Source: Numidum massiliense (GTDB taxonomy: Bacteria > Bacillota > Bacilli > Thermoactinomycetales > Novibacillaceae). From it: DNA of 64,000 nt. Position 1 is the first letter of the stretch, and every line of letters begins with the position of its first letter. The notes beneath the pieces are model-generated. The model saw nothing but the letters and a program-made list of their open reading frames with translations. It ran no database searches and was not told where the DNA came from. The stretch lies in contig NZ_CTDZ01000009.1 of assembly GCF_001375555.1 (NCBI RefSeq), positions 1,419,758-1,483,757 on the forward strand, given 5' to 3'. Positions 4,763 through 10,701 of this stretch are shown one piece after another. Position numbers and translations under genes: made by a program.

Positions 4763-4791
4763 AATGCCCATTTTTGATACAAATGGGCATT
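4763..4791 (-). terminator. rho-independent terminator of the receptor/pro-peptide operon
   Basis: AATGCCCATTT (4763-4773) pairs perfectly with AAATGGGCATT (4781-4791) around a 7-base loop. In the leftward direction it is followed by a T-rich run (TTCTTATTATATATT). It lies 10 bases beyond the stop of the pro-peptide gene, as expected for the end of that operon. Confidence 0.8.
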
Positions 4792-4801
4792 TGTCATATT
4801 C

Positions 4802-4921
4802 TTACTTACCCTGCTGGGTCGAGTTTGCACGCACAATAGGTTTAGCATCATCAACAGCAAATGCAGACACTGGGATAGAGAGAACAGCAACAACTACGAC
4901 GGCAAACAATAGCTTTTTCAA
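4802..4921 (-). CDS. secreted signalling pro-peptide (Phr/NprX-like), partner of the adjacent RRNPP regulator
   Basis: This 39-codon gene starts with TTG at 4921, seven to nine bases after a strong GAGGAGG site that lies inside the last codons of the upstream regulator; only two bases separate the regulator stop from this start. The product has a canonical signal peptide: two lysines, then a hydrophobic core LLFAVVVVAVLSIPV and an SAFA cleavage site near residue 22. The exported tail is VDDAKPIVRANSTQQGK. Size, export signal, position and coupling match Phr, NprX and PapR pre-peptides, whose short C-terminal pieces are re-imported and bind the TPR receptor. Candidate mature pieces lie within KPIVRANST, but the processing site cannot be read from sequence. 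A terminator follows directly. Confidence 0.8.
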   Translation of the reverse strand: MKKLLFAVVVVAVLSIPVSAFAVDDAKPIVRANSTQQGK

Positions 4922-4923
4922 GT

Positions 4924-6243
4924 TTACAGTCCTCCTCTACTCATTGTTTCAACCAGCATAATCCCCTTCATTGCATCAAGGCACTTGTCCTTATCTCCAA
5001 TTTTATCGTAATATTGACTTAAAAGGAAGTGCAAATCTTTTGCTTGGTCGTGGAGATCGTGCGTGTCAGCAAGACCGAGTCCTATTTCGCACGTTTCAAC
5101 ATTCGACTTGCCGCTATGCAATTCCATACGCGCCTTAAATACTAGCAAATGTAGATAATCCCTTGGCGTGGTCAAATAACGTTGAAATTCATGCGCTTTC
5201 TCCAAGCATTCTTTTGCACGATCATACACCTTTTGATGAAAGTACATTTCACCACACGCAACATAAGCTAATGCCCTACGTTCCTTGTTACCTGTAAGCT
5301 TACATAGATCGTGAACAATGCAAAAACATAGTTCTGAATCTTTCCAACGCCGCATAGTCGCATATGCATAACCCATATTTAAATACAGTCTGCTGGCTAA
5401 GTCGTTGTCATTATGACATAGGTCAATTCCTTGTCGAAATGCGTCAAGTGCCTGCTCATACACCCCCTGCCGTCTTAAAATAATCCCCTCTAAATTGTAT
5501 GCGCTCACAATCGTCTGCATGTCATAATATTGCTCACACAAACCTTTAAGTTGAAGCAAACAATGGTACGCACTAGCGTCTTTTCCAGCATGGAACAAAT
5601 AAATACTCTTGTTAAAGATAGCGTCACCTTTGAGGTATGGCCGAAATCCTTCCGGATCGAACACCTCTAATGCCTTGTCTGCATAGTTCACAGCTTGCAT
5701 GAAATCATTATCACCATAGAAAGCACAGGCGGACAAACGATTATAAGCAAGCGTCATCACGTTTAACCCAGGGGACGTTCCATATTCCTCCACATCGCTA
5801 ATAACATCGGTCAATTGAGCATAAGCCTTCTTCCATTCTAGCTGACGACATAGGAGAGACGCATACGCGAGGTTGATACGAATCTTTAAACCCTCATCTT
5901 CAACCGCTACTTCATTGCGTTCCAATTGGCAAATTAGTTTTTCCGCACGCTCACAAAGACCACTAGCAATCAGTTGTTCGATGAGCGACAACGTGGACTC
6001 AATTTCCCGTTTCGCATCTTTACCGGGAGACATCCTTTCCTTTAATGTGTCTTCATCAAGCCTTAAAGCGTTCATGACATACCGAACCTTGTCACTGCTG
6101 GCATTTTGCACAATGCCACGTTCGATGTTGCTAATTGTAGGTACGGAAATACGTTCACTTGCTAGGTCGCTAAGAGTTAATCCCAACTCCTTGCGACGCT
6201 GACGAATAATCCTACCAAGCTCAATTCCGTCAATGTTTTTCAC
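4924..6243 (-). CDS. RRNPP-family Xre/TPR peptide-responsive regulator
   Basis: This is a 439-residue cytoplasmic protein. Residues about 8-62 are an Xre-type helix-turn-helix (GRIIRQRRKELGLTLSDLA, SVPTISNIERG). The rest, about 75-435, is all-helical and built of tetratricopeptide repeats, for example around ACAFYGDNDFMQAVNYADKALEVF and GVYEQALDAFRQGIDLC. This is the architecture of NprR, PlcR and other RRNPP receptors that bind an imported oligopeptide. The pro-peptide gene begins two bases after its stop, which strongly supports that role. I chose GTG 6243, seven bases after GGGGGAG; a GTG at 6249 is too close to that site. This GTG overlaps the TGA of a 17-aa upstream ORF (GTGA). The DNA target and regulated process are not visible; a self-regulated operon is likely. 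Confidence 0.85.
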   Translation of the reverse strand: MKNIDGIELGRIIRQRRKELGLTLSDLASERISVPTISNIERGIVQNASSDKVRYVMNALRLDEDTLKERMSPGKDAKREIESTLSLIEQLIASGLCERAEKLICQLERNEVAVEDEGLKIRINLAYASLLCRQLEWKKAYAQLTDVISDVEEYGTSPGLNVMTLAYNRLSACAFYGDNDFMQAVNYADKALEVFDPEGFRPYLKGDAIFNKSIYLFHAGKDASAYHCLLQLKGLCEQYYDMQTIVSAYNLEGIILRRQGVYEQALDAFRQGIDLCHNDNDLASRLYLNMGYAYATMRRWKDSELCFCIVHDLCKLTGNKERRALAYVACGEMYFHQKVYDRAKECLEKAHEFQRYLTTPRDYLHLLVFKARMELHSGKSNVETCEIGLGLADTHDLHDQAKDLHFLLSQYYDKIGDKDKCLDAMKGIMLVETMSRGGL

Positions 6244-6293
6244 TTCCACACTCCCCCTTTAATGACCTGATGAATGTAATATTCGACACGCAT
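6240..6293 (-). CDS. 17-aa upstream ORF overlapping the RRNPP regulator start
   Basis: ATG 6293 follows AAAGGAGAAGG with a nine-base gap, a stronger site than that of many full genes here. The frame encodes MRVEYYIHQVIKGGVWK and its TGA (6242-6240) overlaps the GTG start of the regulator. The arrangement fits a leader ORF that couples translation to the regulator. It could instead be an unrelated micro-protein; no signal peptide or motif is present. Confidence 0.5.
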   Translation of the reverse strand: MRVEYYIHQVIKGGVWK

Positions 6294-6637
6294 CAAAATA
6301 ATCCTTCTCCTTTTTTAAATAAAATCGTGATCGTAGACAAATATTTAACAATATGGAGATGCGTGACTCAGCTCCTTGTATAAGGCAAACCATGTTGTAC
6401 TCACATCGGGATTTTAAGCCACATGCACACTACATACTGCTTGCTAATTAAAAACATGGATGAAAATTTCCCTAGTATACACAGGGATGCAGTCATTTAA
6501 TGTATTTAACGTATTTCGACACGAGCGGCACCATGTCTGTGCCATACACGAAACGGAGGTTTCGCCCAGCGAGAACCTCCGTTTCCGTTCACCCCAACAG
6601 CCTGTATACGACGGTCTTGCTACAGATTAAGACAAGA
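6294..6637. other. intergenic region of 344 bp between the RRNPP operon and natB
   Basis: This must hold the leftward promoter of the RRNPP operon, but I could not single out a convincing -35/-10 pair. A long perfect inverted repeat lies at 6550-6585 near the natB stop. No gene is visible. Confidence 0.5.
6550..6585. repeat. perfect 12-bp inverted repeat downstream of natB
   Basis: GAAACGGAGGTT (6550-6561) and AACCTCCGTTTC (6574-6585) are separated by 12 bases. It lies after the natB stop, so it may act as a terminator or mRNA-stabilising hairpin for natAB, but no T-run follows in either direction. Confidence 0.6.
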
Positions 6638-8819: not shown

Positions 8820-9542
8820 GTGAATGGAATGATAGAAGGAACGATTAAAGTCGGCTTAGTTGACGACCACCCGTACGATTTGGAAAAAATGTCGCTTATT
8901 TTGTCTAAGGAAGACGATGTCGACATCGTCTTTGCGACGAGTGACGCGAAAGCAGCTTACGAAAAGCTCAAAACGGCGAACATCGACTTGCTTATTACCG
9001 ACATCGAAATGCCGCACCTATCGGGCTACGAACTCGCCGATTTCATCAACAGTTACGCCCTCGACATAAAAGTGATTTTCGTCACGGGCCACAGCGGTTA
9101 CGCTGTGCACGCCTTTGAGATCGCCGTGCTCGATTACATTATGAAACCTTACTCCAAGGAGCGGCTGTTAAAAGGGATCCAGCGGTTACAACGAACAGAG
9201 CCTACCGCCCGCGAAAGGGATAAACTCGTCTTAAAAAGCAAAACTGACATCGTCTTTATTCGCACAAAGGATATTATATTTATTGAACGGACGGGTCGGC
9301 GGACGACGATTGTCGCAATCGACGGCGAGTATACGACGTATCAATCGCTCAACGAGTTGGAAGAGCAACTGTCGAAGCGAAACTTTTTGCGTGCACACCG
9401 GGGATTCATTATTAATATCCACTTTATAAAAAACTTCTCCTTGTACGCGAAAAATTCGTACACTGTCACCTTTCAACAGACGGATCAAACAGCGATGATT
9501 ACGAAAGCGAATTTGGATAAACTGCAACAGCAATTTTTTTAA
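8820..9542 (+). CDS. LytTR-family response regulator, NatR-like
   Basis: This is a 240-residue response regulator. The receiver domain (residues 8-125) has the acidic pair in VGLVDDHPYD, the phosphoacceptor Asp in LLITDIEMPHLSGYE and the conserved Lys in IMKPYSKERL. Residues about 140-238 are a LytTR DNA-binding domain (TKDIIFIERTGRRTTI, NFLRAHRGFIINIHFIKNF). It is followed after 16 bases by the kinase gene and is divergent from natAB, which it probably controls. The start is GTG 8820 with AGGATG ten bases upstream; ATG 8829 is an alternative with no clear ribosome site. Confidence 0.85.
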   Translation: MNGMIEGTIKVGLVDDHPYDLEKMSLILSKEDDVDIVFATSDAKAAYEKLKTANIDLLITDIEMPHLSGYELADFINSYALDIKVIFVTGHSGYAVHAFEIAVLDYIMKPYSKERLLKGIQRLQRTEPTARERDKLVLKSKTDIVFIRTKDIIFIERTGRRTTIVAIDGEYTTYQSLNELEEQLSKRNFLRAHRGFIINIHFIKNFSLYAKNSYTVTFQQTDQTAMITKANLDKLQQQFF

Positions 9543-9558
9543 GTAGGAGTAATGATTC

Positions 9559-10701
9559 GTGATTTCTACCTTGCATTGGCTGACAATCTTCTTTATTTAC
9601 GCCGGCGCGCTTGCTGCGCTTGCCTTAAACCCGAACATAACGAAATCTGTTTCTGTGCTGGCGAGTGTCTGTACGACGTTCCTCTGTTTTCTATTGTGGT
9701 ACGGACGCCGTTTACGCCAGCTGCACATTTATTTACGCACATTGCCACCGCGGCTTACCGTACCGTTTTTATGTGTGCAGCTCGTCTTTTTGCTTCTGCT
9801 CGCGCTACCCGCACCAACTGCGAGCACACTCGTCAGCTGGTTTGGCCTCCTTCTCGCCGGTGGGTTGCGACAGCAATTGTTTCCACAGTGGTTTCGGGAC
9901 ACCCGTAACGGACAAGCCCTGCGTGCGGAGCAGACTGAGCGCGAGGCGGCGTTTCGCCGCGTGCGCGCCGAGCGGCACGACTTTTTAAAGCACGTTAACG
10001 TCCTGCAACATTTGTTAACTGAACGAAAGCATCGGGAAGCAGAGCAATACATCGACGCGCTCTGCGGGGAGTATACAAAAACGAACGCGTCGCTCAAAGG
10101 GGAGGAAGGACACATAGCCGCTATTTTGCTTCGTTATGCGACGTTGGCCGAGCGACAGCAAATCGCCCTCACTTACGATTTGCGCCTTCCGCTGTCCCAA
10201 TTGCCGCTGCCAGCGGTCGAGCAAAGTAAACTCCTCGCTAACTTGCTAGCTAACAGTTTCGAGGCGGCGGAAAAAGTTGCGGAAGAAGTCGCCAGTAAAG
10301 AAACGAATGAGGGATCCGAATCGGTCGTCGAAACGACAGTAGAAGCTGCTAAGGAATCCGCTTCCGCAGTGACAGCTGAGACAGTGCCGCAAATACAAAT
10401 TGACGACGCACTGGGGGAAACGTCTTTCGTCCGTCCTGCGATTGCTCTCAGCACGGAATACTACAGTGGGATTTACATCTTAACGATTAGCAATACGACT
10501 CTGCCGATCGCGAGCAACCGCCTCGATTCGTTGTTTAAGACGTTTCATCCATCGGAAAAAGGCGGGGAGCACGAGGGGCTCGGCACGTTCATTATCGCCG
10601 ACATCGTCGCCCGCCACAGAGGAAAGCTGTCCTTTACGTACGAACCCCCGCTGTTGACGATAAAAATTAAGTTACCAATCGTCGTTAAAGAGCATCAATA
10701 A
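9559..10701 (+). CDS. sensor histidine kinase of the HPK10/GHKL type, NatK-like
   Basis: This is a 380-residue membrane kinase. Three or four hydrophobic helices fill residues 1-110, followed by a coiled region, the H-box AERHDFLKHVNVL (around 140) with the phospho-accepting His, and a GHKL ATPase domain with N-box LANLLANSFEAAE and G-box GLGTFIIADIV. Between the N- and G-boxes is an extra segment of roughly 45 residues rich in Glu, Ser, Thr and Val (EVASKETNEGSE onwards) that is not part of a normal ATP lid. It starts with GTG 9559, nine bases after AGGAG. It is the partner of the LytTR regulator just upstream. Confidence 0.82.
   Translation: MISTLHWLTIFFIYAGALAALALNPNITKSVSVLASVCTTFLCFLLWYGRRLRQLHIYLRTLPPRLTVPFLCVQLVFLLLLALPAPTASTLVSWFGLLLAGGLRQQLFPQWFRDTRNGQALRAEQTEREAAFRRVRAERHDFLKHVNVLQHLLTERKHREAEQYIDALCGEYTKTNASLKGEEGHIAAILLRYATLAERQQIALTYDLRLPLSQLPLPAVEQSKLLANLLANSFEAAEKVAEEVASKETNEGSESVVETTVEAAKESASAVTAETVPQIQIDDALGETSFVRPAIALSTEYYSGIYILTISNTTLPIASNRLDSLFKTFHPSEKGGEHEGLGTFIIADIVARHRGKLSFTYEPPLLTIKIKLPIVVKEHQ

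Follow-up and report, generated by a model that had tools for sequence, protein, structure and literature searches.

The window, that is, the whole stretch of 64,000 nucleotides from Numidum massiliense that was analyzed, contains on its minus strand a receptor gene followed by a small gene for a secreted propeptide. The features are as follows, with the basis of each assignment in parentheses.

4763 to 4791, minus strand: intrinsic-terminator-like hairpin (sequence)
4802 to 4921, minus strand: propeptide gene with TTG start, 2 bases past the receptor stop (sequence; recurrence in paralogues)
4805 to 4855, minus strand: variable 17-residue tail VDDAKPIVRANSTQQGK (sequence; comparison with paralogues)
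4817 to 4840, minus strand: likely pheromone core PIVRANST (alignment with PIVRSNNT of paralogue L007 and PVIRSHST of paralogue L003)
4856 to 4921, minus strand: signal peptide of 22 codons, with the cleavage site behind AFA placed by eye (same length in 10 other propeptides of the genome)
4924 to 6249, minus strand: receptor gene, helix-turn-helix (HTH) plus TPR (ORF, Pfam, AlphaFold2 model)
4931 to 4935, minus strand: Shine-Dalgarno sequence GGAGG of the propeptide gene, within the receptor gene (sequence)
4936 to 6018, minus strand: TPR superhelix of nine helix pairs, residues ~78 to 438 (AlphaFold2 model; NprR and Rap neighbors)
6043 to 6222, minus strand: XRE-type HTH, residues ~10 to 69 (Pfam and alignment)
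6250 to 6259, minus strand: receptor ribosome-binding site AAGGGGGAGT (sequence)
6281 to 6305, minus strand: sigma-H-type promoter AGGATTA-N11-GTCGAAT (no other strict match in the window on either strand; recurs before 10 of 14 receptors)

The receptor ORF runs from a GTG at 6249 to a TAA at 4926 to 4924 and encodes 441 amino acids, and a second in-frame GTG at 6243 would yield a 439-residue protein. The preliminary description had reported a 439-residue HTH-plus-TPR protein, with which the coordinates agree, the start being the GTG at either 6249 or 6243. The Pfam cut-offs of HTH_31, HTH_3, TPR_12, TPR_1, and TPR_2 were exceeded in the receptor; no NCBIfam model reached its cut-off for the receptor or the small product. 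The best-conserved portion of the receptor family in the alignment was the XRE-type HTH.

Only the bases 4923 and 4922 lie between the receptor stop and the small gene, which extends over 39 codons from a TTG at 4921 to a TAA at 4804 to 4802. Its GGAGG (4935 to 4931) is located 9 bases upstream of the TTG, so that the two-base spacing, the 39-codon TTG gene, and the ribosome site inside the receptor gene, all of which had been claimed before, were borne out by the sequence. The product is MKKLLFAVVVVAVLSIPVSAFA followed by VDDAKPIVRANSTQQGK, with the first codon taken as M and the cut placed by eye. Judged in the same way, the first part resembles a Sec-type signal, with a basic start, a hydrophobic core, and an AFA end, and is conserved in the paralogues; the Phr_nterm model gave 13.4 bits at a cut-off of 25. 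The signal peptide and the 17-residue tail of the preliminary description are thus present, and a signal of 22 residues recurs in the paralogous propeptides. The mature signal had been placed within KPIVRANST, and this fits the tails of L007 and L003, in which the corresponding residues are GPIVRSNNT and MPVIRSHST; PIVRANST is most likely the core of the putative pheromone. The “perfect” terminator seen earlier has to be qualified. A stem of 11 pairs does exist, but it is followed by CTTATTATAT with an interrupted T run, and two terminator-like sites in the 2.3 kb scanned compare with a mean of 1.7 in shuffled sequences. No Rfam family matched at the gathering threshold in the 64-kb window.

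On one side of the cassette is a CvfB-type gene and on the other an ABC-2 exporter, beyond which a LytTR response regulator follows; none of these is a clear target. The regulator and a possible histidine kinase without a Pfam match (8820 to 10701, plus strand) are located upstream of the ABC exporter gene (8544 to 6638), and we assume that they may form a NatRK-like pair.

A family of cassettes in the genome and in the order

Coupled small ORFs were searched for with a mechanical scan that required a Shine-Dalgarno sequence, a basic start, a hydrophobic core, and a start no more than 60 bases from a stop. Among the 56 ORFs of at least 150 codons in the window, two matched, the propeptide gene and a doubtful one, which leaves 1 of the 55 other ORFs. 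The genome contains 20 matches to the window receptor, itself included, and 14 of them (L001 to L013 and L015, with L001 being the window cassette) are near full length, although an internal stop is present in each of L008 and L010. A strict coupled ORF was found behind 9 of these 14 (L001, L003, L005, L006, L007, L008, L009, L012, and L013), starting between −4 and +6 bases relative to the receptor stop. Because 9 of 14 receptors carry such an ORF compared to 1 of 55 other window ORFs, the window cassette is not a chance arrangement. A chance ORF as the explanation of the small gene was ruled out by this recurrence together with the control scans.

The other five receptors differ among themselves. 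L010 kept the peptide frame and has no usual start codon, L015 is followed by a doubtful 31-codon ATG ORF at −1, which fails the strict scan, L004 and L011 gave no coupled peptide ORF in the scan of the genome, and no intact propeptide could be recognized behind L002, the closest paralogue with 54% identity. The receptor fragments L016 and L020 still have a signal-peptide ORF alongside. All 11 signals measured in the genome comprise 22 residues and end with FA or LA. Ten of the 11 tails have 16 to 26 residues and that of L020 has 35; none contains two cysteines. All 11 end with lysine, and proline occupies the fifth place after the signal in 10 of them but the sixth in the window tail, with the L010 frame obeying both rules. 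In ten pairs of propeptides compared, the signals were 55 to 100% identical and the tails 38 to 56%; for instance, the signals of L013 and L016 agree at 22 of 22 positions and their aligned tails at 9 of 19.

A tree was built of 42 receptors, in which a starred branch separated the 14 receptors of the genome and the 3 of the sister genome from the rest. A lineage-specific expansion, likewise starred, comprises ten receptors of the genome (L003 and L005 to L013). L001 pairs with L002 apart from it, and two pairs, L015 with L051 and L004 with L021, extend across the genomes. L015 and L051 apparently reside in the same gene order, as judged from sequence starts. The window cassette is one of about a dozen pairs in the genome, which indicates that the population is probably monitored via many private peptides; the spore-forming host would thereby sense its own kind through many separate signals.

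The promoter was scored in its strict form, AGGAWWW-N11-12-RNNGAAT, within 200 bases upstream of the receptor. SigH promoters are described in PMC12456013 with AGGA and GAAT elements and a spacer of 17 to 18 bases. Among the 17 family receptors (14 from this genome and 3 from the sister genome), 10 possess the strict form and 11 a looser one, which occurred 0.08 times on average and at most twice in 1,000 two-base-block shuffles. The strict form marks exactly those 10 of the 14 near-full receptors with a clear peptide frame, L010 counted, and is missing before L002, L004, L011, and L015; in the sister genome, peptide ORFs without the strict promoter occur at L021 and L051. Genome-wide, 41 strict occurrences were found compared to 19 for the reversed control, and 11 of the 41 precede cassettes or a receptor remnant. 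The SigH gene itself scored above the family cut-off in the genome. As a trait of the whole order, the sigma-H-type promoter has to be rejected, since it preceded 1 of 76 receptors (250 bases upstream) and 1 of 161 control ORFs; for two further receptors the upstream sequence was too short.

Receptor matches at an E value of 1e-20 or better were obtained in 42 of 61 genomes, namely, this one and 41 others of the order, and in none of the 19 genomes of other orders of the class. A scan with the single protein returned no close relatives with named records. The only other genome of the family returned, the sister genome, carries a strict coupled ORF behind 2 of its 3 receptors; the two tails end with Glu and Asn, and that of L021 is without the proline at the fifth place. 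NCBI taxonomy lists Numidum in the Bacillaceae and Novibacillus, like Kroppenstedtia and Melghirimyces, in the Thermoactinomycetaceae. A profile scan yielded 80 receptor loci, 2 of them from an unplaced Bacillota metagenome-assembled genome, and 78 were counted after omission of L104, which runs off its contig, and L149 with 495 residues. Two of these 78 order receptors, L090 and L135, contain an internal stop, and the set is not independent, since a single species contributes many of its members. A strict coupled ORF occurred behind 22 of the 78 compared to 0 of 211 other ORFs of at least 200 codons, with the 28-residue match at L131 being doubtful among the 22.

In some order loci, the tails contain repeated units, such as NPGEY four times, AFPGP six times, and SKPGGH, GDPIHT, and DSDPRPA twice each. 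In the propeptides of L070, L053, L056, L109, L057, L069, and L076, a short unit occurs two to seven times, and a PG-like motif is frequent. Multi-copy pheromones would show such repeats.

The preliminary description had asked whether relatives contain a covarying small ORF or lack it. The ORF does recur behind the 22 of 78 order receptors, 9 of 14 in the genome itself, and 2 of 3 in the sister genome, and where it is present in this genome, its signal is strongly conserved, but the remainder fail the strict scan, with L002, L004, L010, L011, and L015 accounting for 5 of the 14 and 56 lacking it in the order. Receptors without a partner are reported to be common in RRNPPA families (PMC9765709).

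Receptor fold and interpretation of the cassette

An AlphaFold2 model of the receptor had a mean pLDDT of 93.1 and contained nine helix pairs behind the HTH. Its input was an alignment of 61 rows, the window receptor and 60 order receptors, from which sequences, mostly near-duplicates, had been removed by hand. The TPR superhelix, on which the earlier reading depended, was therefore found in the model, and the comparison with known structures also pointed in the direction suggested there. The best VIA-align neighbor was apo NprR (5dbk; Z 28.3, root mean square deviation 5.2, 348 residues, 12% identity), aligning over model residues 75 to 438, followed by RapI (Z 27.8), Rap-CSF (27.4), and LGN (26.9), with the NprR-NprX complex 4gpk also listed (25.4). 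ComR, Rgg, and PrgX were absent among the VIA-align matches listed, which does not argue against a relationship to them. In Foldseek, the top rank went to eukaryotic LGN TPR proteins, while Rap, PlcR, and NprR had E values of 5e-6 to 4e-5. Since LGN reaches a Z score of 26.9 and tops the Foldseek result, similarity of fold is by itself not specific to the RRNPP proteins. A phmmer search of the PDB with the single receptor sequence gave no RRNPP protein among 9 matches, and the family profile found RapF (4i9e) at 2.3e-11 amid generic TPR proteins within the best 60 of 316 matches.

Positions 2, 5, 9, 12, and 13 of the TPR helices, with registers set by eye, are taken here as lining the groove. 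In the ten-receptor expansion, variability averaged 1.09 bits at these positions, 1.04 in helix B, and 0.75 in the rest of helix A, values that do not demonstrate coevolution of receptor and peptide. Among the 45 most variable sites, 5 were groove positions in the ten-receptor expansion, with 4.1 expected, and 7 in the seven closest receptors.

According to PMC10075063, the gene-level signature of RRNPP systems is a receptor of 250 to 500 residues with TPRs and an optional HTH, and a propeptide of 10 to 100 residues at −60 to 400 bp. Here, the receptor has 441 residues with both TPRs and HTH, and the propeptide has 39 residues at +2 bp. RRNPP propeptides are further expected to begin with a Sec-type signal, which was judged by eye in this case. 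The RRNPP-type reading of the preliminary description is thus supported at the level of the genes and, with apo NprR as best neighbor, of the fold. The window pair is very probably a peptide quorum-sensing cassette of two genes that belongs to the RRNPP systems, has a receptor resembling NprR, and is presumably transcribed by sigma-H. Most likely, this receptor works like NprR, and it is assigned as NprR-like, not to NprR proper.

In such a cassette, sigma-H would transcribe the receptor and propeptide genes together as growth ends. The propeptide would be exported by Sec and cleaved by signal peptidase after AFA, and the tail may be trimmed by proteases, leaving a short peptide around PIVRANST. 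Re-import of this peptide would be the task of an oligopeptide permease; SBP_bac_5, the importer-type binding protein, has 8 matches in the genome. Binding to the concave face of the TPR domain may then change the oligomeric state and DNA binding of the receptor, and target genes would switch with cell density.

Three other explanations have to be considered. The receptor may act alone or eavesdrop on the peptides of other cells, with the small ORF being a relic in the process of being lost, as with the closest paralogue. Receptors such as L002 without an intact partner, L004 and L011 without any, and L015 with a doubtful one point in this direction, as do the 56 of 78 order receptors without a strict coupled ORF. 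L001, however, is complete from start and ribosome site through signal and tail to terminator, and it has the strict promoter, which is missing before just those four receptors, making this explanation quite unlikely for the window cassette. Somewhat less probable still is a secreted effector, an antimicrobial or surface peptide under control of the HTH-TPR protein instead of its ligand. A Sec-type product, the close coupling, and diversified tails would agree with such a function, and lysine-rich tails do occur, for example in L006, but the tails are mostly 16 to 26 residues long and none has two cysteines. Moreover, the tails are paired one to one with TPR proteins, the model of the window receptor has an NprR- and Rap-like fold, and the short units repeated in tails of other loci of the order agree with pheromones. 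Enterococcal sex pheromones derive from cleaved signal peptides, and what is conserved in the product here is the signal, but an active fragment of the signal peptide with a spare tail is very improbable, because near-identical signals would give one message for many cassettes and the tail is what varies.

Under the preferred reading, an RRNPP-type cassette with an NprR-like receptor, the locus may represent a new subfamily within a known class of systems. The window pair had been called undescribed-looking, which holds in the literature searched, although the kind of system is already known; among the papers listed for Numidum massiliense, none appears to deal with quorum-sensing cassettes. 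Four biosynthetic clusters of Thermoactinomycetaceae adjoin candidate RRNPP systems (PMC10075063), and the systems of the sister genome may already be tabulated in the supplement of that paper. New here are the sigma-H-type promoter, the ten-receptor expansion, and the defense genes near expansion cassettes. Sporulation, virulence, and the fate of phages are under the control of RRNPP systems, and examples in which many receptor-peptide pairs of common origin diverge within a single genome are rare. With about a dozen cassettes that have near-alike HTHs and signals and differing tails, specificity, cross-talk, and the choice of the mature peptide become directly testable.

Phage-defense genes near the expansion cassettes

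Several cassettes of the host sit beside phage-defense genes. This link is unexpected and concerns the expansion, not the window's own cassette. L009 and L010 come after brxA-brxB-brxC-pglX on the same strand and before pglZ, as identified by PADLOC, for brxC from its C-terminal piece. This BREX operon is located on contig C9 of the genome at ~2.265 to 2.286 Mb (L187, L196, and L197), and the interval between L010 and pglZ contains a pglZ-like remnant and genes that resemble IS3-type transposases by eye. Upstream of L005, a stretch of 36 residues matches the pglX end at 89% identity. L003 and L007 adjoin type III res and mod, L006 is positioned behind a decayed ResIII-type remnant, L013, L016, and L017 are near a type I HsdR gene, and L018 and L020 are near an HsdR fragment; these five groups of cassettes, that of L005 included, correspond to the loci L182, L190, L192, L185, and L184. 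In total, 7 of the 10 expansion receptors have a defense-type neighbor or remnant. For L008, L011, and L012, no such neighbor was seen, with 18 selected neighbor proteins scanned by PADLOC in total, and the flanks read of L001, L002, L004, L015, and the sister-genome cassettes gave none either, as judged from sequence starts and, for the window, by Pfam. Near defense loci, an LXG-domain gene identified by Pfam and an LXG look-alike judged by eye are present (L192, 6908 to 8509; L196, 10052 to 11530).

PglX, the type I HsdR domain T1RH-like_C, and the type III-like methylase N6_N4_Mtase each have a single match in the genome, and no N6_Mtase was found in it outside pglX. The genes of these three matches are 0.3 to 3.4 kb from a cassette cluster, with fragments counted as cassettes. 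The probability that three randomly placed points fall within 5 kb of 14 clusters is about 1e-4, a value to be read with the pattern having been noticed post hoc. ResIII (PF04851) has 14 matches in the genome, 12 of them outside the loci examined and probably in part housekeeping helicases. PglX at an E value of 1e-100 or better occurred in 4 of the 42 genomes of the order, and a general link between PglX and the receptors was rejected for this sample, since the three other genomes with PglX had no receptor within ~7.5 to 9 kb. Defense proteins of the types found here were not detected by tblastn beside the 80 order loci in flanks of up to 3 kb.

Shared genomic islands may explain the proximity to defense genes without any regulation. 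A tentative and rather unlikely scenario is that expansion cassettes moved into restriction and BREX loci, each with a private peptide and mostly with a sigma-H-type promoter, so that cell density sets phage defense or its silencing. If functional, the embedding in BREX and restriction loci would tie density sensing to phage defense by a route for which no paper linking RRNPP and BREX was found among the matches listed.

Comparison with known systems

Rap proteins of the Rap-Phr systems of Bacillus subtilis have a TPR fold close to that of the window receptor (Z 22 to 28), and several paralogous pairs exist per genome, as here (PMC5199041). Rap proteins are described in PMC12700828 as being without a DNA-binding domain, and the HTH rules out the window receptor as a Rap protein. 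Most phr genes of B. subtilis are reported to have SigH-dependent promoters (PMC4689505), whereas the sigma-H-type promoter here precedes the receptor gene. PlcR-PapR also combines an HTH-TPR receptor with a secreted propeptide (Foldseek E value of 2e-5), but PlcR is given as a five-TPR fold in PMC12700828, and the nine helix pairs of the model rule out an assignment to PlcR. AimR-AimP and subfamily 08 of the Paenibacillaceae share the nine-TPR fold with the window receptor. For subfamily 08, a DPG motif is reported (PMC12700828), and tails of related order loci often have a similar (D/E)PG-like end. AimR of the arbitrium systems is a phage-borne receptor with a DPG-type peptide; the window tail contains no DPG motif, and the receptor gave no tblastn match in the phage collection, or in the plasmid collection.

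The closest known system is NprR-NprX of the Bacillus cereus group, which likewise comprises an HTH-plus-nine-TPR receptor and an adjacent secreted propeptide. Apo NprR binds Spo0F and inhibits sporulation, and the NprX peptide is SSKPDIVG (PMC4970707); KP and IV are close together in this peptide as well as in KPIVRANST, possibly by chance. Identity to NprR in the structural alignment is 12%, and NprR was not among the phmmer matches in the PDB. Unlike NprR-NprX, the cassette described here has its partner gene two bases past the receptor and a sigma-H-type promoter, and it is one of about a dozen paralogues in the same genome.
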